A DNA stretch of 44,615 nucleotides from Deltaproteobacteria bacterium (GTDB lineage: Bacteria; Desulfobacterota; GWC2-55-46; DRME01). The notes beneath the pieces were generated by a model. It was not told the origin of the DNA and did no database searches. It saw only the letters and a list, made by a program, of their open reading frames with translations. The position numbers were made by a program, and so were the translations under genes. Each line of letters opens with the position of its first letter. Position 1 is the first letter of the stretch. Location of the stretch: assembly GCA_011375175.1 (NCBI GenBank), contig DRME01000045.1:1-44615 (forward strand). Direction: 5' to 3'. Positions 1,751 through 39,970 of this stretch are shown here, piece by piece.

Positions 1751-1833
1751 CCTTCGAGCCCCCGGAGGGTTCGGGCCGCAAAGGCGTAACAGTCCCGCCT
1801 GGCGCGGCCCGAACCTTCCGGGGGGCTCGAAGG
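1751..1833. repeat. A hairpin copy 1, in the M29 leader
   Basis: Core CCGCAAAGGCG...CGCCTGGCGCGG between arms of 29 and 30 nt (left from 1751, right to 1833), complementary apart from one or two bulges. The arm sequence (TTCGAGCCCCCGGAGGG) differs from other copies. The core A-tract is degraded to TAACAGT, so the terminator-like reading on the minus strand is weak here. Next to it at about 1859-1889, GAAGCTCTGA is fused to AAGTCTTTAGAAGGGGG, which looks like an E-element terminal repeat joined to a spacer by deletion. Confidence 0.8.
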
Positions 1834-3054: not shown

Positions 3055-3259
3055 TTACCCTGAGGGAACCTTTTTGTAAAAGGGTCACAGACCCACGGTT
3101 CCCTCAGACTCCCTCCAAAAACTTTAACGCCCTGCGGCCCATCCCGATTTTGCTTGCAAAATCGGGATGAGCCGCAGGGAATTAAAAGTCTTTGAAGGGG
3201 GTCTGGGGGAAACTTTCTACAGAAAGTTTCCCCCGGTGAAATAAATCGGAGCTTCATTA
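3050..3259. repeat. E element copy 2
   Basis: Near-complete element between the M29 gene and the redox operon. hp1 at 3060-3107 has an extra small hairpin (GGGTCACAGACCC) in its tip. The centre palindrome is 3130-3179, with one mismatch near the GGCCC/GAGCC position. hp3 is 3203-3235. The right terminal repeat is AAATCGGAGCTTC at 3243-3255. The left terminal repeat is shortened to TGATTACC and includes the M29 stop codon. Confidence 0.88.
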
Positions 3260-3426
3260 AAATACTGTTGCCTGAATCATGGAAGTTTGTTAATGTAAAT
3301 TCTCTCGACCACCCCGTGGTATGACAAATGTCATGGTATGGCAACAAATCGCATCCGCGGTGGCGGCTTCGGGTGCACGGGGCCGAGGGGATGCGCAACA
3401 ATAAAAGAGACAGGGGGACTTGAACT
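3260..3426 (+). promoter_or_regulatory. Leader of the redox operon with a 14-bp dyad
   Basis: This AT-richer 167-bp stretch follows E copy 2. It contains the dyad ATGACAAATGTCAT at 3321-3334, flanked by a GGTATG direct repeat. The dyad has the shape of a dimeric regulator site, possibly CRP/FNR family, but the half-site TGACA is not specific enough to name one. A weak sigma-70 pair (TTGCCT 3268-3273, TAATGT 3291-3296, spacing 17) lies upstream of it. The ribosome site AGGGGGAC precedes the first gene. Confidence 0.45.
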
Positions 3427-7191: not shown

Positions 7192-7495
7192 GGGAAAACT
7201 CTGACTGATTACCCTGATGGAACCTTTAACGCCCTGCGGATCATCCCGATTGTGCTTGCACAATCGGGATGATCCGCAGGGAATTAAAAGTCTTTGAAGG
7301 GGGGCTGGGGGAAACTTTCTACAGAAAGTTTCCCCCGGAACTGCTTTGGGGGAGACTTTCTGTAGAAGGGCCATAGGCCCGCGTTCCCCCGTACCCTCTC
7401 GTATGTTATCCGGATCTTCGGCGGCGGCGGATGCGGGCGGGAGCCCCCCTTCAGACTTGAAAAAGTTTTCCCCGGGGTGATTGATCAGAGCTTAT
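7192..7495. repeat. E element copy 3 (hp1 deleted, hp3-like unit duplicated)
   Basis: Left terminal repeat GGGAAAACTCTGACTGATTACC (7192-7213), then hp1 missing with the spacer fused directly. Centre palindrome 7232-7281 has a paired change: the tip reads GATTGTG...CACAATC instead of GATTTTG...CAAAATC. hp3 is 7305-7337. A second hp3-like hairpin (7348-7390) carries the inner GGGCCATAGGCCC hairpin. A GTATGTTATCCGGATCTTCGG module follows at 7401-7421, but the A hairpin that should come next is deleted. The right end is GATCAGAGCTTA. Confidence 0.82.
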
Positions 7496-14889: not shown

Positions 14890-15071
14890 CTTCTCCCCTG
14901 CGGTGTTCGTGATCGATTGGTGATTTTTAGAACCAACACAAACGGTCAGGGAGCCTGCTCTGTCCGTGGCCGGCGTATCCCCCTGCGGGAAGGCCGAAAG
15001 CGGTTACCGGGCGCCCACCTATGAACCACGGGTTCATAAATACTTTCGACACGGCACAGGCGGGGGAGAAC
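14890..15071 (+). ncRNA. ssrS: 6S RNA
   Basis: About 182 nt between zapA and the 5-formyl-THF cyclo-ligase gene, the classic ssrS position. The closing stem pairs CTTCTCCCCTGCGGTGTTCGTG (from 14890) with CACGGCACAGGCGGGGGAG (to about 15070), leaving small internal bulges. Internal 6S-like landmarks include GGGAGCCTGCTCTGTCCG, GGGCGCCCACC, and the hairpin TGAACCACGGGTTCA at 15023-15037. 6S RNA binds the sigma-70 holoenzyme through an open central bubble and represses transcription in stationary phase. Exact ends are estimates from the stem. Confidence 0.9.
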
Positions 15072-18320: not shown

Positions 18321-18637
18321 GAGTCCCCCCCCGGTTCCTCGCCCCATCGTATGTTATTCGGATCTTCGGCTGTACCGGGGAGTTCGGCCCGCGCCAGGCG
18401 GGATTTTTACGCCTTTGCGGCCCGAACTCCCCGGCACAGCCCCCCGAGGCAGCCGGCGTGGGCAGGACACCCCCTTCAAAGACTTTCAATACGAGTTGGT
18501 TTCCCCCTGTCTTGCGGAGCAAGACAGGGGGAAACCAACTCGCGTTAAAAGTTTTTGGAGGGAGTCTGAGGGAACCGGGGGTCTGTGACCCTTTTACAAA
18601 AAGGTTCCCTCAGTGCAATAAATCAGAGTTTCCTTAG
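18321..18637. repeat. E element copy 4 with A hairpin 2 and a different centre palindrome
   Basis: Between ymdB and tyrS. It begins with an hp3 remnant (AGTCCCCCCCCGG) and the ATGTTATTCGGATCTTCGG module (18351-18369). A hairpin 2 follows at 18368-18441 in the orientation that reads CCCGCGCCAGGCGGGATTTTT on the plus strand. The centre is a perfect 51-bp palindrome (18492-18542, arm GAGTTGGTTTCCCCCTGTC) unrelated to the usual CCCTGCGGATC centre. hp1 with an inner GGGTCTGTGACCC, and the terminal repeat AATCAGAGTTTCCTTAG, close the element. Confidence 0.88.
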
Positions 18638-18648
18638 CGTCAAAAGAC

Positions 18649-19920: not shown

Positions 19921-20137
19921 GAATCGGAAGTCTTTGAAGGGGGCATCTTCCCGCCGTCCACGGCCCGCCCGGTGTCCCCGGCGTCGCGTGGGAGGTTCGG
20001 ACCGCAAAGGCGTAAAAAAACCCCGCCTGGCGCGGTCCGAACCTCCCACGCGACGCCGGGCGGCTATGAACAACACATGGAACACATGGGGGTGAAAGGC
20101 GGACCTGCGGCCCTTATGCAGAAGGCTTCTCCCCCAT
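19921..20137. repeat. E element remnant 5 with A hairpin 3
   Basis: Between convergent tyrS and lpxH. Spacer GGAAGTCTTTGAAGGGGGC (19924-19942) is followed by A hairpin 3 at 19977-20060: a perfect arm pair around GGCGTCGCGTGGGAGGTTCGG, with T7 after the core stem on the minus strand. An hp3 arm (GGCCCTTATGCAGAAGGC, 20110-20127, then TTCTCCCCC) overlaps the last codons of lpxH. Both terminal repeats are missing. Confidence 0.78.
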
Positions 20138-22734: not shown

Positions 22735-23061
22735 CGCTTCCGATTTGTTGCGCCGAGGGAACCTTTTTACAAAGAGGAAACGGCCCTCGGCTGTCGGGCC
22801 GCGCCAGGCGGGATCTTTTTACGCCTTTGCGGCCCGACAGCCCGCGGGCCGTAAAGGATTGAGAAGGGCTTCCCAGCCCCCACGGTTCCCTCAGACTCCC
22901 TCCAAAAACTTTTAACGCCCTGCGGTTCATCCCGATTTTGCTTGTAAAATCGGGATGAACCGCAGGGAATTAAAAGTCTTTGAAGGGGTCTGGGGGGAAC
23001 GTGGGCCTATGGCCCTTCTGCAGAAAGTTTCCCCCAGGGTAAATAAGCGGAGCTTCCTTAG
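22735..23061. repeat. E element copy 6 with A hairpin 4 nested in hp1
   Basis: Between ubiB and ribF. Left terminal repeat CTTCCGATTTGTTG, then hp1 opened by A hairpin 4 (22780-22852) and closed again at GGTTCCCTC (22884-22892). The A core reads as a terminator on the plus strand (GGCGGGATCTTTTTACG). Centre palindrome 22918-22967 shows a paired change (CGGTTCATC with GATGAACCG). hp3 carries an inner GGGCCTATGGCCC. The right terminal repeat GCTTCCTTAG ends 8 bp from the ubiB stop. Confidence 0.88.
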
Positions 23062-23068
23062 AGGTTCC

Positions 23069-26977: not shown

Positions 26978-27045
26978 GCATATTTTTAACCCTCGCCGCC
27001 CCGCCCCTTGAAAAGACCCCCGCCCTTGTGTTAGCCTCAATGGTC

Positions 27046-27202
27046 TTGGGGGGGAGCTTTTCGCAGAAGGGTCATGGACCCGTCCTTTCCCGCTCCCCCT
27101 TTCGTATGCTGCCCGTCTAATGCGGCGGTCCATGGGAGGTTCGGCCCGCAAGGGCGTAAAAAAAAACCGCCTGGCGCGGGCCGAACCGCCGCCGCGGCCG
27201 GA
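27046..27202. repeat. E element remnant 7 with A hairpin 5
   Basis: Between the divergent rnr and gatC starts. A decayed hp3 (GGGGGGAGC... with inner GGGTCATGGACCC) runs to about 27100. CGTATGCTGCCCG, a decayed form of the ATGTTATTCGG module, comes next. A hairpin 5 is at about 27134-27195: the inner arms GGTTCGGCCCGC/GCGGGCCGAACC are intact, while the outer arms no longer pair fully. On the minus strand its core is CCGC-GCCAG-GCGG followed by nine T. No terminal repeats remain. Confidence 0.72.
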
Positions 27203-27281
27203 TTGACGCAGAAGAGGGGCCGGGGCGGCCGCGGTACTTTTACGGAGGGCTCCTTCAGGCCCGTAAGCAAGGAGGAAGGTG

Positions 27282-27569
27282 ATGGCCATAAGTGTCGAAG
27301 ACGTCGAGCACGTAGCCGAGCTTGCGAGGCTTGAGCTTACCGACGGGGAGAAGCGTCTTTATGCGAGCCAGTTGCAGCGCATCCTCGAGTACGTGGAGAA
27401 GCTCTCGGCCGTGGAGACGGACGGCGTGGAGCCCACGTTTTCCACGGTGCCGGGGCCGCAGCGGCTGCGCGAGGACCGCGTCGAGCCCTCGCTCGAGCGC
27501 GCGAAGGCGCTGGAGAACGGCCCCGACTGCGAGGGCGGCACCTTCAGGGTTCCGAGGATAATAGAGTAG
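27282..27569 (+). CDS. gatC: Asp/Glu-tRNA amidotransferase subunit GatC
   Basis: 95 aa small subunit that stabilises GatA in the complex turning mischarged Asp-tRNA(Asn) or Glu-tRNA(Gln) into the amidated form. Family features: [19 protein letters not shown] at the N-terminus, [20 protein letters not shown] in the middle, [10 protein letters not shown], and FRVPRIIE at the end. ATG 27282 follows AAGGAGGAAGGTG. A GTG three bases earlier is less likely. It lies 40 bp before gatA. Confidence 0.95.
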
Positions 27570-27609
27570 GGGCCCTTTTGATGGAGTCGATGAGAAAGGG
27601 ACGGTCCCG

Positions 27610-29070
27610 ATGGATATAAGGGGAAGGAAGGTAGGCGAGCTTTCGTCGCTTCTCGCCTCCGGCGAGGTGAGGAGCGTGGAGCTTACGCGCTCTTATCTCG
27701 AACGTATAGATGAGCTCGACGGCAGGCTCGGCGCGTACGTGACCGTGACGGCCGGCGAGGCGCTCGAGGCCGCCGCCCGCGCCGACGAGCGTATAAGGGA
27801 GGGCCGCGACGTAACGGCCCTTACGGGCGTGCCCATATCGGTGAAGGACATATTCTGCACCGAGGGCGTGGAGACGACCTGTTCGTCGAGGATACTCAAG
27901 GGGTTCAGGCCGCCCTACGACGCCACCGTCGTAAAGAGGCTCAAGGACGCCGGGGCGGTCATCCTCGGCAAGAACAACATGGACGAGTTCGCCATGGGGT
28001 CGTCCACCGAGACATCGGCCTTCGGGCTGACGCGAAACCCCTGGGACCTCGAGCGCGTGCCGGGAGGCAGCAGCGGGGGCTCGGCCGCCGCCGTCGCCGC
28101 CTCGCTCTGCGCCGCCTCGGTGGGCACCGACACGGGCGGCTCCATCCGCCAGCCCGCGGCATGCTGCGGCGTCGTGGGTCTCAAGCCCACATACGGCAGG
28201 GTCTCGCGCTACGGCATGGTCGCCTTCGCCTCGTCGCTCGACCAGGCGGGCCCCCTCACCGCCGACGTCACCGACGCCGCCATTATGCTCTCCGTGCTCG
28301 CCGGTCACGATCCCCTCGACTCGACCTCCATGGACGCGCCGGTGCCCGACTACACGGCGGCGCTCGACCGCGGCGTCAAGGGCCTGCGGCTCGGTATGCC
28401 CAGGGAGTACTTCGTCGAGGGGCTCGACGCCGAGGTGGATGCCGCCGTGCGCCGCGCCGTCGGGGCCCTCGAGAAAGAAGGCGCCGAGGTGGTGGAGGTG
28501 AGCCTGCCCCACACGGAATACGCCGTGGCCGTCTACTATCTCGTGGCCACGGCCGAGGCGTCGAGCAACCTGGCGCGCTACGACGGCGTAAAATACGGCC
28601 TCCGGGTAGACGACGGCGGGGGACTGCGCCGCATGTACTGCAGGACCCGCGACAGGGGCTTCGGGGCCGAGGTGAAGCGCCGCATCATGCTCGGTACCTA
28701 CGCGCTCTCGGCGGGCTACTACGACGCCTATTACAAGAAGGCCGCGCAGGTGAGGACCCTCATAAGGCGCGACTTCGAGGAGGCCTTCGCCAGATGCGAC
28801 GTGGTAGTCACGCCCACGGCGCCGGGGCCCGCCTTCGGCATCGGCGAGAGGACCGAGGACCCGCTCACCATGTACCTCTCCGACATCTTCACCATCTCCT
28901 GCAACCTGGCGGGACTGCCGGGGCTCTCCATGCCCTGCGGCCTCACGGGCGGAGGACTGCCCATCGGCTTGCAGATCATAGGCCGTCCCCTCGACGAGGA
29001 GACGGTGCTCGCCGCGGCGCGGGCATACGAAAAGGTCTCGGACTGGAACGATAAAAGACCGGCGCTTTGA
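27610..29070 (+). CDS. gatA: Asp/Glu-tRNA amidotransferase subunit GatA
   Basis: 486-aa amidase-signature subunit that hydrolyses glutamine. Catalytic residues are visible: Lys in [10 protein letters not shown] (about 80), cis-Ser in [11 protein letters not shown] and the nucleophile region [13 protein letters not shown] (about 150-178). Full length. The TGA stop (29068-29070) is the TGA of the E terminal repeat, directly adjoining E copy 8, which separates gatA from gatB. Confidence 0.97.
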
Positions 29071-29437
29071 TTGCTTGCCCTGAGGGAACCTTTTTGTAAA
29101 GGGTCACAGACCCACGGTTCCCTCAGACTCCCTCCAAAAACTTTTTGTTTGCTCTTCGAGCCGCGTTGGTTCTCATGATCGCTGAGGAAACGAGGTTCTT
29201 CAGCCCAAGTTAAAAGTCTTTGAAGGGGGTCTGGGGGAAACGTGGGCCTATGGCCCTTCTACAGAAATTTCCCCCAGAGTATCGGGGGGCTGTGCCGGGG
29301 GTTCGGGCCGCAAAGGCGTAAAAAAATCCCGCCTGGCGCGGCCCGAACCCCCGGTACGGCCGAAGATACGAATAACATACGATGGGGCAGGGGGGGAGAC
29401 GCGGGCCTGTGGCCCTTCTTCAGAAATTTTTCCCCGG
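29068..29437. repeat. E element copy 8, inserted between gatA and gatB, with A hairpin 6
   Basis: The left terminal repeat TGATTGCTTGCCCTG supplies the gatA stop. hp1 with inner GGGTCACAGACCC follows. The centre is not a palindrome but a segment of about 70 bp (29146-29211, TTGCTCTTCGAGCCGCG...), which recurs inverted in E copy 10. hp3 with inner GGGCCTATGGCCC is at about 29233-29276. A hairpin 6 (29288-29361) has its terminator reading on the minus strand. The inverted module CGAATAACAT and a second hp3-like arm end right at the gatB ribosome site. Confidence 0.86.
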
Positions 29438-29450
29438 GGAGGAAGTCTTC

Positions 29451-30896
29451 ATGGGATACGAAGCTGTCATAGGTCTCGAGGTTCACGCCCAGCTCCTGAC
29501 GGAGTCCAAGCTTTTTTGCCGGTGTTCGACCCGTTTCGGCTCGGAGCCGAACACCCAGGTCTGTCCCGTCTGTCTCGGCATGCCGGGGTCGCTTCCCGTG
29601 CTCAACGCAAGGGCCGTGGAGTACGCCTTGCGCATGGCCCTGGCAGTCGGTTGCCGGATCAACCCCGCGAGCGTCTTCGCCCGCAAGAACTACTTCTACC
29701 CCGACCTGCCCAAGGGCTATCAGATATCGCAGTACGAGCAGCCGCTGGCCGAGGCCGGCCATGTGGAGATCGAGGCCGAGGGCGGGGGGCTCAAAAAGGT
29801 GGGCATCACCCGCATCCACATGGAGGAGGACGCGGGAAAGCTCCTCCACGGAGAGGCCGCCGGCTCCGACACGTCGAGCTTCGTGGACCTCAACCGCACG
29901 GGCGTGCCGCTCATAGAGATCGTCAGCGAGCCCGACATATCGAGTCCCGCCGAGGCCGCCGCCTACCTCAAGGAGCTGCGCGACATACTGGTCTATCTCG
30001 AGATATGCGACGGCAACATGGAGGAAGGGAGCTTCCGCTGCGACGCCAATGTCTCCGTAAGGCCAGAGGGCTCGGCAGGGCTCGGCACCAAGACGGAGCT
30101 CAAGAACCTCAACTCCTTCAAGTTTATAAAGGACGCCGTGGCCTACGAGATAGAGCGCCAGATCGAGGTCATCGAGGACGGCGGCCGGGTGGTGCAGGAG
30201 ACAAGGCTCTTCGACGTCTCCAGAGGCGTTACCGTCTCCATGCGCAGCAAGGAGCAGGCCCACGACTACCGCTACTTTCCCGACCCCGACCTCCTGCCCC
30301 TCGCAGTCGGCGACGCCATGGTCGACGAGGTGCGCTCCTCGCTTCCCGAGCTGCCCGCCGACAAGCGCAGGAGGTTCGTCGAGCAGTACAGCCTGCCCGC
30401 CTACGACGCCTCGGTGCTCGCCTCGCAGCGTCAGCTCGCCGACTGGTACGAGGCGTGCGTAAAGCTATGCGGCGAGCCCAAGCTCGCCTCCAACTGGGTG
30501 ATGGGCGAGCTCCTGCGGCTCCTGAAGGAAGAAAACCTCTCCATCACCGACGCGCCGGCGACCCCGCGGATGCTCGCCGAGCTCATAGGGCTCGTGAAGA
30601 ACGGCACCATAAGCGGCAAGATCGCCAAGGGTGTTTTCGAGGAGGCCTTCAGGACCGGCAGATCGCCCAAGGCCATAGTCGAGAGCAGGGGGCTTACCCA
30701 GATATCGGACGAGGCGGACCTTGAAAGGATCGTCGACGAGGCCGTAAAGGCCGACCCCGAGAGCGCCGCCCGCTACAGGGCCGGCAAGACCAAGCTCCTC
30801 GGCTACTTCGTGGGACAGGTGATGAAGGCCACCAGGGGCCGCGCAAACCCGCAGGTAGTCAATAGACTCGTCAAAAGACGCCTCGAAGAGGATTGA
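29451..30896 (+). CDS. gatB: Asp/Glu-tRNA amidotransferase subunit GatB
   Basis: 481-aa tRNA-binding/kinase subunit. It opens [21 protein letters not shown], then [20 protein letters not shown] (about 27-46) with a CxC...CxxC cysteine cluster. [10 protein letters not shown] and [12 protein letters not shown] follow, and the YqeY-like tail ends [14 protein letters not shown] 29451 follows GGGGAGG, which touches the end of E copy 8. Longer in-frame starts would lie inside the repeat. The TGA stop is the GATTGACT end of E copy 9. Confidence 0.96.
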
Positions 30897-31180
30897 CTCG
30901 GCCGAGGGAACTCTTTTGATGATCCTGGGGGAAACGTGGGTCTGTGACCCTTTTACAAAAAGGTTCCCTCAGGGTAATGAATCAGAGTTTCCTTTGCCTG
31001 GGGGCGCTCCACCTGGAGGTTCGGGCCGCAAGGGTGTAAAACGATCCCGCCCGGCGCGGGCCGAACCTCCAGGTGGAGCGCCCCCACATGCGCACAACAG
31101 GCAAAGGGGGGCCGGGGGAACGCGGCCCCGTGAACCTTCTGCAGGAAGTCTCCCCCCGGAGCAGTCAGTCAGAGCTTTCC
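30894..31180. repeat. E element copy 9 with A hairpin 7
   Basis: Between convergent gatB and the Nudix gene. It includes a hybrid hairpin in which an hp3 left arm (GGGGGAAAC, 30928-30936) is joined to an hp1 right arm (AAAAAGGTTCCCTCAG, 30956-30971), with inner GGGTCTGTGACCC. Next come the terminal repeat AATCAGAGTTTCC and A hairpin 7 (30999-31086). The A7 arms pair over about 25 bp, and an outer stem CCTTTGCCTG/CAGGCAAAGG (30991-31000 and 31098-31107) adds more. A final hp3-like unit and terminal repeat AGTCAGAGCTTTCC end 7 bp before the Nudix stop. Confidence 0.84.
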
Positions 31181-31187
31181 CGGTTCC

Positions 31188-31622
31188 TCACGGAGCGAGG
31201 CCGAAGGCGGAGAAGCCGGTGCGGCGCCATTTGAAGTAGTCTTCGAGGATCCTGCGGTGGTCGAAGGCTATTGTTTCGGGCAGGGTCGATTCGGTGAAGA
31301 CGGCGGCCCTTGCGGCGTCGTCTGCGCCTTTCGGTTCCCCCTGCGCCTCGGCGACGAAGACGACGGAGATGGTGTGGAAGCGGGGGTCGCGGTCGGGGTC
31401 GGAGTAGGCGTGCATCTGGGCGAGGAGCCTTACGTCCAGCCCCGTCTCTTCTCTCGCCTCCCGCCGGGCCGCGTCCTCGAGGCTTTCGCCGTAGTCGACG
31501 AAGCCTCCCGGTATGGCCCATCCAGGCGGAGGGTTCCGGCGCTCGATGAGGACGATGCCGCGCCGCGGCAGCTCGATGATGATGTCTACGGTGGGAATGG
31601 GATTGCGGTAGCGGGCGGACAT
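31188..31622 (-). CDS. Nudix hydrolase
   Basis: 144 aa. The Nudix box is complete: [24 protein letters not shown] (spans about residues 33-57, key residues G, E, R-E-x-x-E-E-x-G). It opens [25 protein letters not shown], typical of ADP-ribose or nucleotide-sugar pyrophosphatases, and ends with a [12 protein letters not shown] segment. Substrate cannot be assigned. The ATG at 31622 has no clear ribosome site and lies 23 bp after the rubrerythrin-like stop, so the pair is probably co-transcribed. Confidence 0.9.
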
Positions 31623-31645
31623 GGCGAAGAGATCGGACGCCGGCC

Positions 31646-32140
31646 CTACACCGACTCGGCGAGAGCGTCGAGCAGGGCCTTGAGCCTGCGGGCGTGGCCC
31701 CGTTCCTCCTCGGCCAGGTCGAGCCATATGGAGCGGGCCGCCTCGCTTCCGCTCTTCTCGGCCATGGAGGTGAAGTACTCGGCCGCGTAGCGCTCGGCGT
31801 CGAGGGCTATAATGACGGCCTGGCGCGGATTGTCTATGGTCTCGACGAGGCGTTCCATGCTTATGCGGCGCGTGAAGATGTCGGGGCTCGCCTTCTTGAC
31901 GTACTCTTCCATGTCCAGCTCCTCGTCGGTCACGGCGTCGCCGAGACCGGCCCTGGGATAATAGGAACTCTCGATATTGGCGAGGTGTCCCTTCTCTTCG
32001 CTTGCCAGGGCGGAGAAGACTTCGCTTATGCGGGGGTCGTCGATCCTCTCCTTGAGGAGCGAGTAGAAGGCCATTCCGTTGTTTTCTATGAGTGCGGCCG
32101 TCTTGACGGCCTCGAGCTCCTCGGTATGCTCGAAGGGCAT
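31646..32140 (-). CDS. Rubrerythrin-like ferritin-fold protein
   Basis: 164 aa four-helix ferritin-like protein with di-iron-type motifs: a first-helix Glu in [22 protein letters not shown] (EExxH, about 55), an Ala-rich helix with [10 protein letters not shown], and [10 protein letters not shown] (about 145-154). The rubredoxin-like C-terminal domain of classical rubrerythrin is absent. Likely roles are peroxide reduction or iron handling in anaerobes. ATG 32140 follows a perfect AAGGAGG. It heads a two-gene unit with the Nudix gene. Confidence 0.88.
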
Positions 32141-32196
32141 GGCGTCCTCCTTGGGGGCTTTTGAACGTCCCGGCCCGCGGGACGGGACGATGTTAC

Positions 32197-32225
32197 AATT
32201 TATCAGAACTCCGGCGGCGCTGCAA
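32197..32225 (-). promoter_or_regulatory. Possible promoter of the rubrerythrin-Nudix pair
   Basis: Minus-strand TTGCAG (32220-32225), 17-bp spacer, TAAATT (32197-32202). It matches consensus only moderately. The rest of the 275-bp gap to the HEAT gene (32141-32415) holds no repeat and no obvious RNA. Confidence 0.4.
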
Positions 32226-32415
32226 CCCAAAAGCTGTGAGGGAGGTGCGCGGCGGCGTCCGCTTCGGGCGGCGGCCCCTCAAGGAGGGGAAACCCTCGAA
32301 GCGGAGAAAGAAGAGTTTGTCTGGATTTTTCTGAATCCATGGGTTAAATTTTTCGTGATCCGTGTCGATTAATAATGATGAAGCCCGGTTCGGTGGAGCC
32401 TGAGAGGTAGAGGAG

Positions 32416-33213
32416 ATGGCGACCATAAGGGAGTATCTTGTAGAGATGTTCAACAAGGTCCTGGCCAAGACCATCACCCGGGAAGAAGGGACCATGCTCT
32501 TGAACGACCTCGTCAAGCGCGACAAGGTGACGACCCTCAAGGAGATTGCTTCGCTCATACGGACCCCGCCGCCCGGCGTCTTTCCCAAGACCATACTCCA
32601 TACGGTGGTCCTTGCAAACAACAAGGTCTTCAACGATCTGCTCATCGCCAGTCTCGATCACAGGGACGAAAGCGTCACCATACTCGCCGCCGAGGGGCTG
32701 GCCAAGCTGCGCACCGACGACGCCAAGGAGGTGCTCAAGGGCCACATCGACAGCGACATCTACCACGTGCGCAAGGCCTCTGCCGCGGCGCTCGTCATGG
32801 GCTTCGGCAAGGAGGGGGTCGAGATACTGAAAAAGCACGTGCTCACCCACCCCGAGCCCTTCTACCGGCTCACCTCGGTCATGGCCATCATAGGCGCGGG
32901 CGCCATGGGCAAGCAGGCCCTCCTCGAGATACTGGCTACCGGCGACGTGCCAGCCATAGAGAGCGTTGCCGAGGGGCTCGCCGACGCCCCGGTGGACTTC
33001 GACGAAGAGGAGATACCGACGCTTATCGAGGCCATGGTGGCGGCGGCGGACAACGAGAAGTTCGAGGCCGTCGAGAGGCTGCTCGGCGTGCTCGGTTCGC
33101 TCGGCTCCAAGGCGGCAAGGTACGAGCAGTACCTAAGTGTCTTCCTCGAAAGCCCGTCTCCCGCGGTAAGAGAGGCCGCCACGACGGCGGTGAGGCGCAT
33201 AAGATACTCCTGA
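32416..33213 (+). CDS. HEAT-repeat protein
   Basis: 265 aa built of helical pairs about 31-37 residues apart, for example FNDLLIASLDHRDESVTILAAEGLAKL, VLKGHIDSDIYHVRKASAAALVMGF and YLSVFLESPSPAVREAATTAVRRI. Such solenoids are protein-binding scaffolds, and no catalytic motif or signal peptide is present. The partner is unknown. GTAGAGGAG precedes the ATG. The TMTC-like gene follows after 60 bp in the same direction and could be co-transcribed. Confidence 0.85.
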   Translation: MATIREYLVEMFNKVLAKTITREEGTMLLNDLVKRDKVTTLKEIASLIRTPPPGVFPKTILHTVVLANNKVFNDLLIASLDHRDESVTILAAEGLAKLRTDDAKEVLKGHIDSDIYHVRKASAAALVMGFGKEGVEILKKHVLTHPEPFYRLTSVMAIIGAGAMGKQALLEILATGDVPAIESVAEGLADAPVDFDEEEIPTLIEAMVAAADNEKFEAVERLLGVLGSLGSKAARYEQYLSVFLESPSPAVREAATTAVRRIRYS

Positions 33214-33273
33214 GGGGAGCGGCGCTCCGGCCGCGGGCGGCGGAGCGCCGAGGCGGGAAGGCGGTTTTTTCAG

Positions 33274-35127
33274 GTGGACGGGCTTCGACGCTTCTTCGAG
33301 ACGAACAGGGCCGCCGCGGCCCTCATCCCCTTCGTCCTGTCGGCGCTCGCAGTCCTTGCCCTCTACTCCCATGTCCTCCATGGCCCGTTCCTCTACGACG
33401 ACCTCATCTACATCGTAAGAAACGGCAGGATCCGCGACCTCGGCGCGCTCACCGACTTCACGAGCTCGCGCTACGTGACCTTCGCCACCTTCGCCCTCAA
33501 CTACGCCGTCGGCGGGCTCTCCACCTTCGGCTACCACCTGGTGAACGTGGCCGTCCACGTCTTCAACGGCTGGCTCGTCTACGCGCTCGTAAGGCTTACG
33601 TGGAGGACGCCCGTGGTGGCGAGGGCCGCCGCCGGCGCGAGCGCGAGGGGCCTCGCCCTGACGGCGTCCCTGCTCTTCGCCGTCCACCCCCTCCAGACCC
33701 AGGCCGTAACGTACATAACCCAGCGCTTTGCTTCGCTTGCAACCTTCTTCTACCTCGCTTCCCTCGTCTGCTACGCCGCGGCGAGGCTCGACGTGGAGCG
33801 CAGCGACGGCGGCCTTCTCCGGCGCCACGGTCTCTACGTCCTCTCGGTAGCCGCGGCCCTGGCCGCCCAGAAGACGAAGGAGATAGCCTTTACGCTCCCC
33901 TTCGTGATCGCTCTCTACGAGCTCGCCTTCTTCAGCGGCTCCGTGGCGTCCGCCCGCCGCCGGGCGGCGCTGCTCGTTCCGTACGGCCTTGCGGCGCTCG
34001 TCATTCCGCTGTCGTTTCTTCTCGTCAGCCCCGGCGCCGTCTCCTACGCATCGGGCATAGAGAACTGGATAACGGAGCTCCAGAAGGCCGAGCTCGGCAC
34101 GCTCTCCAAGTACGTCTATTTCCTCACCGAGACGAGGGTGCTCGTCACCTACCTGAGGCTTCTGGTGCTGCCGGTGAACCAGATGCTCCTCTACGACTTC
34201 CCGGCCTCCCACTCGATCCTCGAGCCCGCGGTCCTCGCTTCGCTGGCCTTTCTCTCTCTTCTCCTCTTCGGCGCCCTCTATCTCTTCTTCCGCGCGAAGA
34301 GGCTCGGCGAGCCCTACCTTCTCGTCGCCTCGGCCGGCGTGATCTGGTTCTTCGTCACCTCGTCGGTGGAGTCGTCGGTCATACCCATAATGGACCTCAT
34401 CTACGAGCACAGGGTCTATCTGCCCTCGGTCGGGGCGCTCACGGCCCTTGCGGCCCTCGGCGCCGCGGCCCTTGAGCGGCTCGGCGCGCGGCCCCGGACC
34501 GGTGTAGCCCTGACGGCGGCGGCCGTCGTCCTGTTGTCGGTGCTGACTTACCAGCGTAACCTCGTCTGGACCGACGCGCTCGCCTTCTGGGCCGACGGGG
34601 CGGCCAGGGCCCCTGCTCTCGCAAAGCCCCGTATAAACCTCGCCATCGAGCTCATGCGCCTGGGCCGCTACGACGAGGCCGTCGTCGAACTCGAGAAGGC
34701 CAAGCGCTCGGAGCCCCGCTACCTCGACATATACTATAACCTCGGCATAAGCCACGTTAACCGCCGGGACTACAGGAGCGCGCTGCGGGAGTTCAACCGC
34801 GCCCTCGAGGTCCTGGAGGTCCTCAAAGAGGGTCACTACTTCGCCGCCGCCTCGCTCGAATACGAGATGATCATCAACTCCTACCTCGGCAACCTCTACG
34901 TAAGACTCGGCGAGCCCGAGCGGGCGCTCGCGCACTTCGAGCGGGCCCTGGCCATAAAGGCCGACAACAACGCGGCCCGCTACAACTACGCCGTGGCCCT
35001 CGATATGCTCGGCCGCTACGAGGATGCGGCGGCCCAGCTCCGGATACTCCTCGGCTCAGACCCGTCGGACAGCGGGGCGAGAGCCTACCTCGACGCCCTG
35101 CTCTCCCGCATCGGACGGGACCGCTGA
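33274..35127 (+). CDS. TMTC-like multi-pass membrane protein with C-terminal TPRs
   Basis: 617 aa. About ten hydrophobic segments fill residues 17-430, and tetratricopeptide repeats fill about 450-610 (YYNLGISHVNRRDYRSALREFNRAL, NLYVRLGEPERALAHFERALAI). First-loop FLYDDLIYI, AVHPLQTQAVTYITQR and YEHRVYLPS match the GT-C glycosyltransferase layout of TMTC/PMT-type proteins, where an acidic pair in the first loop is catalytic. It may transfer sugars from a polyprenyl donor in the inner membrane. The start is GTG 33274, chosen because it precedes the first membrane helix. The acceptor is unknown. Confidence 0.85.
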   Translation: MDGLRRFFETNRAAAALIPFVLSALAVLALYSHVLHGPFLYDDLIYIVRNGRIRDLGALTDFTSSRYVTFATFALNYAVGGLSTFGYHLVNVAVHVFNGWLVYALVRLTWRTPVVARAAAGASARGLALTASLLFAVHPLQTQAVTYITQRFASLATFFYLASLVCYAAARLDVERSDGGLLRRHGLYVLSVAAALAAQKTKEIAFTLPFVIALYELAFFSGSVASARRRAALLVPYGLAALVIPLSFLLVSPGAVSYASGIENWITELQKAELGTLSKYVYFLTETRVLVTYLRLLVLPVNQMLLYDFPASHSILEPAVLASLAFLSLLLFGALYLFFRAKRLGEPYLLVASAGVIWFFVTSSVESSVIPIMDLIYEHRVYLPSVGALTALAALGAAALERLGARPRTGVALTAAAVVLLSVLTYQRNLVWTDALAFWADGAARAPALAKPRINLAIELMRLGRYDEAVVELEKAKRSEPRYLDIYYNLGISHVNRRDYRSALREFNRALEVLEVLKEGHYFAAASLEYEMIINSYLGNLYVRLGEPERALAHFERALAIKADNNAARYNYAVALDMLGRYEDAAAQLRILLGSDPSDSGARAYLDALLSRIGRDR

Positions 35128-35150
35128 GGGAGCGGAGGACCCCGACTTTG

Positions 35151-35626
35151 GGGAAGCTCCGATTGACTACCCTGGGGGAAACTTTCTGAAGAAGGGGCAC
35201 AGGCCCGAGGGCCATAGGCCCACGTTTCCCCCCTGCCCCTATGTTATTCGGATCTTCGGCCGTACCGGGGGTTCGGCCCGCGCCAGGCGGGGTTTTTTTT
35301 ACGCCTTTGCGGCCCGAACCCCCGGTACGGCCCCCACGAGGCAGCCGGCGCGGACAGGACGTCCCCTTCAAAGACTCTTAACTTGGGCTTAAGGAGCTCG
35401 TTGCCTCGGCGATCATGAGAGCCAACGCGGCTCGAAGAGCAAACAAAAAGTTTTTGGAGGGAGTCTGAGGGAACCTCGGGGGCTGGGAAACCTCTGTCAA
35501 TCCTTTACGGCCCGCGGGCTGTCGGGCCGCAAAGGCGTAAAAAATCCCGCCTGGCGCGGGCCGACAGCCAAGGGCCGTTTCCCCTTCGTAAAAAGGTTCC
35601 CTCGGCGCGATAAATCAGAGTCTCCT
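35151..35626. repeat. E element copy 10, composite with A hairpins 8 and 9
   Basis: The largest copy, between the TMTC-like gene and the DHH-CBS gene. Terminal repeat GGGAAGCTCCGATTGACTACC, an hp3 enlarged by two inner hairpins, and the ATGTTATTCGGATCTTCGG module (35241-35259) come first. A8 (35258-35332) has its terminator reading on plus, with T8. Next is an inverted copy of the E8 centre segment (about 35389-35448). The opened hp1 holds A9 (35507-35578) with terminator reading on minus. The AAATCAGAGTCTCC end closes it. A9 with its hp1 flanks is a near-identical inverted copy of the A4 block in E copy 6. Confidence 0.88.
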
Positions 35627-35655
35627 CGGTTCTTTTCTGTGGTATCATCCTCTTC

Positions 35656-38277
35656 ATGGAAGTCATCACCTCCCACGTCAACGCCGATTTCGACACCCTG
35701 GCGTCCATGGTGGCCGCCAAGAAGCTCTACCCCCGTGCGGTGCCCGTCTTTTCCGGGTCCCTCGAGAAGCCGCTTCGCGACGCCCTGCCCGCCCTCGAGC
35801 TGCCCTGCGTCATAGAGCGCGCGAGGAACGTGGACCTCGACGCCGTGACCCGTCTCATACTCGTCGACATAAGGAGCGCTGCGCGCCTCGGTCCTTTCGC
35901 GGCCGTGGCCGGACGTCCGGGCGTGGACATACACATATACGACCACCATCCCGGCGGCGACGCGGACCTCCACGGCTCGGTCGAGGTCATAGAATCCTGC
36001 GGCTCGACAACGACGATCCTCACGCTCATCCTGAAAGAGCGGGGCATGGGGCTCACGGCCGCCGAGGCGACGATCCTCATGGCGGGCGTATACGAGGACA
36101 CGGGTTTTTTGAGCTACCCCACGACGACGACCCGCGACTACGAGGCCGCCGCCTTCCTGCTCGCCGCCGGCGCTGACCTGTCGAGGGTGTCGGATCTTCT
36201 GAGAAACGAGCTCACCACGGCCGAGATATCGACGCTCAACGAGCTCATCCAGAGCGAGACGGTCTACACGATAGGCGGCGTGGACATCTCCGTTGCGAGC
36301 GCCGACGTGGAGAAGTATCCGGCCGACGTTGCGTCGCTTGCCCACAGGCTGCGCGACATAAGGGGCATGGAGTGTCTCTTCCTGCTCGGCGACATGGGGG
36401 ACAGGGTCCATATCGTGGCCCGCAGCCGCACCCCGGCCGTCAATGTCGGCGAGGTGATGCGCAGGCTCGGCGGCGGAGGGCATCCGAGCGCCGCGTCGGC
36501 CACGCTCAAGTCGACGACGCTCGTCGAGGCCCGCGAGAGGCTCCTTGCGGCGGTGCGGGAGGTCGTGAGTCCGGTGCGCACGGCCTCGGAGGTGATGAGC
36601 TCGCCGGCCATAACGGTGGGCGTGGAGACCACGCTCGCCGACGCGGAGCGCACGCTCATGCGCTACAACATAAACGCCGCGCCCGTGGTGGACGACGGGG
36701 GGGCGCTCATGGGGGTCGTCACCAGGCAGGTGGTGGACAAGGCCGTCTATCACGGCCTCGGAGAGGCGCCGGTGCGCGACTACATGACGACCGACTGCCA
36801 GCACGTCAGCGTCAGCTCGGGGCTCGACGAGGTGAGGGAGAAGGTCATCGTCCACGGCCAGAGGCTTCTTCCCGTGCTCGGCGACGCAAGGGTGGAGGGG
36901 GTCATAACGAGGACGGATCTCTTGAAGCTCCTCCACGAGGAGCTGGTCGAAGAGCCGAGGGGGCCGAAAAAACGCAAGAACCTCAGGAGCCTGATGGAGG
37001 AGATGCTGCCGCGCTGGGCGCTCCGGATCCTCAGGGACGCGGGCGAGGTCTCCGAAGAGCTCGGCTACCGGGCCTACGTGGTGGGCGGTTTCGTGCGCGA
37101 CCTGCTTCTGCGGCGCGAAAACCTCGACATAGACATCGTCATCGAGGGCGACGGCATCAGGTTCGCAAAGGTCATGGCCGAGCGTCACAGGCTGCGCGTG
37201 CGCAGCCACGAGCGCTTCAAGACGGCCGTGCTCGTCTATCCCGACGGCTACAAGGTCGACGTGGCCACGGCGAGGCTCGAGTACTACGAGAGGCCGGGGG
37301 CGCTTCCCACGGTGGAGCACTCGTCGCTCAAGCTCGACCTCTACCGCCGCGACTTCACCATCAACACGCTGGCCGTCTCGCTCGAACCGTCGCGCTTCGG
37401 CCAGCTCATAGACTTTTTCGGGGCCAGGCGCGACATCAAGGAACGCACCATAAAGGTGATCCACAACCTGAGCTTCGTCGAGGACCCCACCCGCGTGCTC
37501 CGGGCCGTGCGTTTTTCCCGGCGATTCGGCTTCCGCATAGCCAGGCACACGGCCAACCTCATGAAGAACACCATGAAGCTCGACCTCATGGGAAAGGTCT
37601 CGGGCTCGCGGCTCCTCGAGGAGCTCAAGAACATACTCTGCGAGGAGGACATCGCCGTCGAGGCGCTGAAGACGCTCTCCGAGCTGGGGCTGACCGGCCT
37701 GCTGCATCCGCAGATGAGACTCGACGAGGCGGCCTTCGATCTCCTCGAAAGGGCCCGCTCCACGCTCCAGTGGCACAGGCTCCTCTACCTGGACGACCGC
37801 ATCGAGCCGTGGCTCGTCCTCTTCCTGGCGCTCACCGACGGGCTCGGCGAGGAGGAGCTCGACGAGTACGCCCGCCGGTTGACCATCTCGGGAAAGCACA
37901 GGCTCGAGGTGTTGCGGGCAAGGGGGGCCGGCCTGCGGGCCCTCTCGGCCATGGAGACCGCCGCCGCCTCCGACACCCCCCTTCTCGGGAGCACCATATA
38001 CAGCCTGCTGAGGCCCCTGCCGCTGGAGGTGACGCTCTATCTCATGGCCAAGACCGCCTCGGAGAAGGCGCAAAAGGCCGTCTCCCTTTACGTAACGAGG
38101 CTGCGCTTCGTGAAGACGGAGCTCCGGGGCCGCGACGTCATGGCCCTCGGCGTACCCCATGGCCCGGCCGTTGGCGAGGTCCTGAACCTCCTGCTCAAGA
38201 TGCGCCTGGACGGCCAGCTCCGCTCGCGCGGAGACGAAGAGGCCTTTGTGAGGGACTTCCTGCTGAGGGAGCCTTAA
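35656..38277 (+). CDS. DHH-CBS-CBS-poly(A)/CCA-type nucleotidyltransferase fusion
   Basis: 873 aa. DHH phosphoesterase (1 to about 310) with SHVNADFDTLASM, IYDHHPGGD (DHH box, about 95) and DHHA1 GGGGHPSAA (about 275). Two CBS domains follow (about 315-430). Then a class II-type nucleotidyltransferase head, YVVGGFVRDLLLRRENLDID (about 474-493), with RRDFTINTLAV and DPTRVLRAVRFSRRF, and a helical tail. Related fusions act as A-adding or CCA-adding enzymes. The DHH part may hydrolyse oligo-nucleotides. ATG 35656 has no ribosome site, and a TATCAT box at 35643-35648 could make it leaderless. Confidence 0.9.
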   Translation: MEVITSHVNADFDTLASMVAAKKLYPRAVPVFSGSLEKPLRDALPALELPCVIERARNVDLDAVTRLILVDIRSAARLGPFAAVAGRPGVDIHIYDHHPGGDADLHGSVEVIESCGSTTTILTLILKERGMGLTAAEATILMAGVYEDTGFLSYPTTTTRDYEAAAFLLAAGADLSRVSDLLRNELTTAEISTLNELIQSETVYTIGGVDISVASADVEKYPADVASLAHRLRDIRGMECLFLLGDMGDRVHIVARSRTPAVNVGEVMRRLGGGGHPSAASATLKSTTLVEARERLLAAVREVVSPVRTASEVMSSPAITVGVETTLADAERTLMRYNINAAPVVDDGGALMGVVTRQVVDKAVYHGLGEAPVRDYMTTDCQHVSVSSGLDEVREKVIVHGQRLLPVLGDARVEGVITRTDLLKLLHEELVEEPRGPKKRKNLRSLMEEMLPRWALRILRDAGEVSEELGYRAYVVGGFVRDLLLRRENLDIDIVIEGDGIRFAKVMAERHRLRVRSHERFKTAVLVYPDGYKVDVATARLEYYERPGALPTVEHSSLKLDLYRRDFTINTLAVSLEPSRFGQLIDFFGARRDIKERTIKVIHNLSFVEDPTRVLRAVRFSRRFGFRIARHTANLMKNTMKLDLMGKVSGSRLLEELKNILCEEDIAVEALKTLSELGLTGLLHPQMRLDEAAFDLLERARSTLQWHRLLYLDDRIEPWLVLFLALTDGLGEEELDEYARRLTISGKHRLEVLRARGAGLRALSAMETAAASDTPLLGSTIYSLLRPLPLEVTLYLMAKTASEKAQKAVSLYVTRLRFVKTELRGRDVMALGVPHGPAVGEVLNLLLKMRLDGQLRSRGDEEAFVRDFLLREP

Positions 38278-38280
38278 TCA

Positions 38281-38310
38281 TAGCTTCCTTAATGGATTAA
38301 TGGATTAATC
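38281..38310 (+). repeat. Solo E terminal repeat and 9-bp tandem repeats
   Basis: TAGCTTCCTTAATGG (38281-38295) matches the right-end terminal repeat of E elements. It is followed by ATGGATTA repeated (TTAATGGATTAATGGATTAA, 38289-38308) and then the complete E copy 11, which looks like an older end left behind. Confidence 0.55.
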
Positions 38311-38523
38311 CTAAGGAAACTCTGATTAATTACCCTGAGGGAACCTTTTTGTAAAAAGGTTCCCTCAGACTCCCTCCAAAAACTTTTAACGCCCTGCGGA
38401 TCACCCCGATTTTGCTTGCAAAATCGGGGTGATCCGCAGGGAATTAAAAGTCTTTGAAGGGGGGCTGGGGGAAACTTTCTACAGAAAGTTTCCCCCAGTG
38501 TAATAAATCAAAGCTTCCCTAAG
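38311..38523. repeat. E element copy 11 (reference, complete)
   Basis: 213 bp. Left end CTAAGGAAACTCTGATTAAT (38311-38330). hp1 (38334-38367) is a perfect 14-bp-arm palindrome. Centre palindrome 38392-38441 has the paired change ATCACCCC/GGGGTGAT. hp3 is 38465-38498. The right end reads, in reverse complement, CTTAGGGAAGCTTTGATTTA. The two halves align base for base over about 105 nt (roughly four-fifths identical), so the whole element is also one large palindrome. No target-site duplication is evident. Confidence 0.93.
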
Positions 38524-38574
38524 ACTCAGATGCTATATTGAAGTGTACCTATAATATAGAGGGGATGTCCGGCT

Positions 38575-39920: not shown

Positions 39921-39970
39921 GGACGCCCGCAAGGGCGTAACAGCCCCGCCTGACGCGGCCCGGCGCCCCC
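39921..39970. repeat. Decayed A hairpin 10
   Basis: Core CCCGCAAGGGCGTAACAG...CCCGCCTGACGCGG between fic and radC. The outer arms are nearly gone and the A-tract is broken (TAACAGC, as in A hairpin 1). No E terminal repeat is recognisable in this 222-bp gap. Confidence 0.65.

Follow-up and report, generated by a model that had tools for sequence, protein, structure and literature searches.

We describe a family of hairpins, designated A, whose copies probably go back to a single ancestor and are dispersed through one bacterial lineage, with a core constrained in sequence and arms constrained in structure. In the scheme that we favor, one ancestral element would have spread within the lineage to yield the present intergenic family; its core would be a recognition sequence for a protein, read in single-stranded DNA or in RNA, and its arms would be under no constraint beyond forming a stem of about 20–27 bp. 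The match between the arms would be kept jointly by selection for a foldable stem and by template switching in which one arm is copied off the other; in about ten copies the core has been turned round inside the stem. The core changes little while the arms diverge, a pattern that suggests recognition of the core sequence within a stem of which only the structure matters.

Copies in the Window and in the Genome

All ten places at which A hairpins had originally been predicted in the window (the whole analysed stretch of 44,615 nucleotides) exist (Table 1). The core that was thought to be common to them is exact in seven, with variants at 27134 (CCGCAAGGGCG), 30999 (CCGCAAGGGTG...CGCCCGG), and 39921 (CGCCTGACGCGG). 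Pairing of each left arm with its right arm likewise holds in most copies, but there is no stem at 39921 and a stem of only 11 bp at 27134 and about 10 bp at 35507; genome-wide, the stem is broken in 12 of 187 copies. In the hairpin at 35258–35332, whose core lies on the minus strand, arms of 24 nt are 96% complementary and enclose a spacer of 27 nt. The window also contains a 6S RNA at 14892–15070 (RF00013, 82 bits).

Table 1. A hairpins and associated repeats in the window
Feature	Position	Strand	Remarks
A hairpin	1751..1833	+	25/26-nt arms
B and C repeats	3065-3271, 18542-18638, 22905-23062, 29055-29275, 38310-38533		also at many loci
Core-less A module	7392..7441	-	module flanks joined; arms and core gone; no hairpin
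A hairpin	18368..18441	-	arms of major subfamily
A hairpin	19977..20060	+	outer arms perfect, 25 bp
A hairpin	22780..22852	-	arm subfamily GGGCTGTCGG
A hairpin (27134)	27135..27190	+	short outer stem
A hairpin	29288..29361	+	arms of major subfamily
A hairpin	30999..31086	+	27-bp arms; variant core GGGTG/CGCCC
Approximate A module	35233..35357	-	left flank CTGTCCGCGCCGGCTGCCTC.., right flank CGAAGATCCGAATAACATAGGGGCAG; limits inferred from comparison with other copies
A hairpin of this module	35258..35332	-	19-24 bp arms; core 35278-35312
A hairpin	35507..35578	+	arm subfamily GGGCTGTCGG; paired segment inside broken outer stem
A core, matching arms absent (39921)	39927..39958	+	decayed copy

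A search with the core pattern found 201 strict copies in the source assembly (2.49 Mb, 138 contigs, 98.6% complete), evenly split between the strands (102/99). This number is a lower bound, since contigs break near A hairpins (C2, C6, C22, C43, C50, C61, C64, and others end within about 200 bases of one), and the repeats thus limit the assembly. One copy at a contig end (C2), with a perfect match of 80 bp between its arms, was treated as an assembly artefact. All 187 copies extracted for analysis are intergenic, none being located in a gene predicted by a simple codon-usage script, which was used instead of an annotation pipeline.

As far as is visible, the family is restricted to the source lineage. 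The core pattern has no match among 38 genomes of the same order and none among 394 genomes of the phylum, and scanning 19 same-order genomes with a covariance model of 36 copies brought up no relative. The core pattern matched once in a set of 84,980 genomes and once among viral contigs; both matches lack matching arms and are ascribed to chance; no A hairpin was found in phages and plasmids. About 350 kb of same-order genomes sampled for long hairpins yielded none with the A geometry and two unrelated hairpins with short loops.

Structure and Covariation of the Hairpin

The fold is a single long stem with the core CCGC-AA-RGGCG-loop-CGCCY-GGC-GCGG, in which an asymmetric internal loop (AA/GGC) separates CCGC/GCGG from RGGCG/CGCCY and the terminal loop is rich in A. 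Both strands of the copies fold, under RNA and DNA parameters alike; fold z-scores are -6 to -11, and the outer stem measures 20–27 bp in most copies. In an alignment of 36 copies, standard pairs fill 95.3% of the stem cells, compared with 74.0 ± 0.9% when the letters of the 3' side are re-dealt among copies; when the stem partners are slid past each other, pairing falls to 36–47%. Changes in this alignment are two-sided in 220 cells and one-sided in 8, and the covariation score is 0.53 versus 0.13 in the control. The fold z-scores and the excess of pairing over the re-dealt control exclude chance as the source of the stem. Among the stem cells of 145 copies, 2625 are Watson-Crick pairs, 65 G.T, 14 A.C, and 51 other; in 89 of these copies, G faces G at the stem position adjacent to the core, a mismatch.

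The core varies little, and the arms vary at almost all positions yet keep their pairing. Because most copies were found through the core, its conservation is exaggerated; a small check in the window, made without reference to the core, gave six inverted repeats of the A geometry, each of which carries it. Arms of unequal length occur in 12 of 51 copies of the major subfamily, and these, together with the broken stems mentioned above, indicate that neither correction nor selection is strict.

Inheritance of the Arms and Inversion of the Core

The impression that the arms are specific to each copy, on which the original prediction was built, is an artefact of a sample of ten. Over 145 copies the arms form a continuum: every arm has a nearest neighbour differing at 0–7 of 19 positions, closer than shuffled arms (mean 8.5). 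Moreover, even the most isolated arms fit the family profile better than shuffles do (combined p ~1e-5), and conservation drops with distance outward from the core. The arms have thus been passed down together with the core, and such common descent is what the original prediction named as its own refutation. In two copies (L235, C110 near 42200, and L193:566) the left and right arms belong to different subfamilies and do not pair; these are apparent recombinants between copies.

The core is inverted relative to the flanks in nine of 97 copies that could be anchored by their flanks, and also in L237, giving ten in all, distributed over at least two arm subfamilies. The inversion events may be fewer than ten, as an inverted founder could have several descendants. 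Known effects of template switching at inverted repeats are homogenised arms and inverted spacers (PMC8604942, PMC8794818), and inversion of the core against its flanks is the expected product of this process. Snap-back copying therefore survives in a weaker form, as template switching that helps to keep the arms matched, and not as the rebuilding of arms in blocks: double changes at two positions are not clustered (6 adjacent versus 9.3 expected) and so leave no positive footprint of block copying inside the arms, and the arms of unequal length also speak against it.

Stems one step apart differ by 19 distinct two-sided changes versus 25 one-sided ones, counted as distinct contexts and not as events on a tree. 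Eight of the 19 are purine-pyrimidine flips, which cannot proceed via a wobble pair, and the two-sided changes including these flips point toward templated exchange. On the plus strand of the core, G.T stands in 38 distinct contexts and A.C in 13 (p 6e-4, which is indicative, contexts not being tree events), and this excess of G.T points toward selection on the folding of one strand. We retain both processes and make no claim to separate them.

Composite Modules and the Search for a Spreading Agent

A module of about 130 bp surrounds many of the A copies, in the order CTGCCCGCGCCGGCTGCC ... hairpin ... CGAAGATCCGAATAACATACGATGGGGCAG; in many copies it ends in CTGCCC / GGGCAG, and these ends are absent from diverged copies. 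The modules are flanked by, and also found inside, other palindromic families, B and C, so that mosaic clusters are formed. The B repeats (CTCTGATTAATTACCCTGGGGGAAACTTTCT..AGAAAGTTTCCCCCAGGGTAATTAATCAGAG) often contain an inner GTGGGCCTATGGCCC hairpin. The C repeats (CTCCCTCCAAAAACTTTTAA..TTAAAAGTCTTTGAAGGGGG) have an inner palindrome that varies between copies and is nevertheless complementary, a layout opposite to that of A, with the outside fixed and the inside variable. Tandem arrays of A with B at a spacing of about 174 bp comprise five copies in L142 (C134:1768-2540) and three in L171 (C80:11610-12037).

It is quite possible, if somewhat less likely than not being so, that A is a non-autonomous MITE-like element whose transposase has been lost or escapes recognition, the covariation being a by-product of the structure used in transposition. 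This explanation is compatible with the one that we prefer and is not opposed to it. It would account for the copy number, the intergenic dispersal, and the restriction to one lineage, as well as for a module with defined ends that occurs in several contexts, B repeats and tandem arrays included. On the other hand, the hairpin itself has no conserved ends, and no clean target duplication was seen by eye. In addition, the two kinds of enzyme sought are both absent from the 98.6%-complete assembly, the Y1/RAYT transposase (PF01797), for which positive controls were detected, and TnpB (PF07282); with neither present, mobility is argued solely from copy number and dispersal. The one reverse transcriptase found, a 700-aa protein of the UG19 defence group (507 bits; L200 / L238, C20:26415-27041), was considered as a spreading agent and set aside, having no evident link to the A hairpins.

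Possible Roles of a Transcript

Selection on a transcript of the CCGCAARGGCGUAA strand, that is, ordinary covariation of a structured RNA, is a less likely explanation of the family. The strong covariation beyond the controls agrees with it, as do the conserved internal loop and loop start, and the excess of G.T over A.C on the core strand is not predicted by strand-neutral DNA processes. There is also a slight excess of copies in the same sense as the downstream gene (103 versus 70). However, the hairpins occupy divergent, convergent, and co-directional gaps in both senses (57 versus 41 between co-directional genes), and their orientation relative to genes is nearly neutral, which argues against a role as leader or terminator. 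Furthermore, G.T makes up just 2.4% of the paired cells, and an Rfam search gave nothing at threshold; weak scores of one copy against microRNA precursors reflect a GC-rich hairpin.

More doubtful is an undescribed kind of hairpin element, in which some enzyme or RNA-binding protein would read the fixed, asymmetric core in single-stranded form and the element would spread through the genome, its arms being re-templated at each replication or transfer.

We regard a family of intrinsic transcription terminators as improbable: the minus strand of many copies does contain CCCGC-GCCAG-GCGGG followed by a T run (three in 27000-36000), but terminator-like matches are not above those in shuffles (8 versus 6.6), the T run lies in the main loop and is often interrupted, the orientation to genes is neutral, and the G that forms the small hairpin, mispaired with G next to the core, shows no association with the run of A on the other strand (p 0.77).

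Core-Less Modules and Loop Insertion

Two core-less A modules were found among about 100 related ones, the comparison of empty sites being made between paralogous sites within one genome. In the module near 7392-7441 of the window, the flanks are joined and the hairpin is gone. The other (L221, C85:4467-4505) has a short, perfect hairpin of 8 bp, GGCTGCCC-GCG-GGGCAGCC, which agrees with the occupied arms in its outer 5 bp alone and differs in the remainder, so that it resembles a rearranged deletion. Long palindromes are prone to deletion, and from their sequences we read both modules as probable deletions, two cases being too few to settle the direction.

The idea that the core drops into the loop of a pre-existing hairpin, each copy retaining the arms of its target, is in our judgment very improbable: the dissimilar arms in the window and the perfect hairpin at L221 speak for it, but the arms are related across the 145 copies compared, L221 lacks the full arms that loop insertion predicts, no hairpin is left in the second core-less module, and GGTTCGG(0-28)CCGAACC, the hairpin that the common inner arm would form if the core were lacking, is absent genome-wide. 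Moreover, two B repeats contain a whole A module within their left arm, which is uninterrupted in 73 of 86 B copies, and in both cases the two A arms belong to the inserted module.

Discussion

Several aspects of the A family have counterparts in known systems. REPINs and REP sequences with their RAYT (Bertels and Rainey, PMC3116915) likewise comprise hundreds of short, lineage-specific intergenic hairpin repeats per genome, and for REPINs, compensatory changes in both halves of the hairpin are reported, with spacer length and foldability described as critical (PMC3116915). The A palindrome shares with them its high copy number, short length, and intergenic location. In contrast to REPINs, in which the outer REPs are conserved and the spacer is variable, A has a conserved centre and variable outer arms; no Y1/RAYT gene accompanies it, and no conserved GTAG or CGTC tag stands beside the palindrome, whose arm ends are unconserved, CGTC occurring near A chiefly in copies whose module follows a C repeat. 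As the tag, the transposase, and the layout with a conserved outside are all missing, A is not a member of REP/REPIN, and we place it beside them by its manner of life. Covarying arms are accordingly not new in themselves; what sets A apart is its inside-out layout together with the inversions of its core.

The stem-loop repeat families of bacteria (PMC2267715) likewise have a common secondary structure and are mostly intergenic, but in A the arms vary far more than the core, and A was matched here to no described family. Hairpins maintained by template switching (PMC8794818; PMC8604942) likewise undergo homogenisation of arms and inversion of spacers; they are single sites followed across species or strains, whereas A offers about 200 paralogues in one genome, with covarying arms and ten core inversions. 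BIMEs are likewise mosaic clusters of palindromic units, as A is with B and C; no REP transposase was found in the genome with A. To our knowledge, none of the three families is related in sequence to the enterobacterial BIMEs.

A methodological lesson is that samples of ten copies can make inherited arms seem independent. Some 200 paralogous hairpins with a fixed centre and drifting, matched arms constitute a natural experiment on compensatory changes in stems, for which it is a standing question whether such changes arise by two mutations and selection or in one templated event. In A, the ten inverted cores point toward templated exchange between the arms, and the excess of G.T over A.C suggests an additional part for the single-strand folding of one strand.
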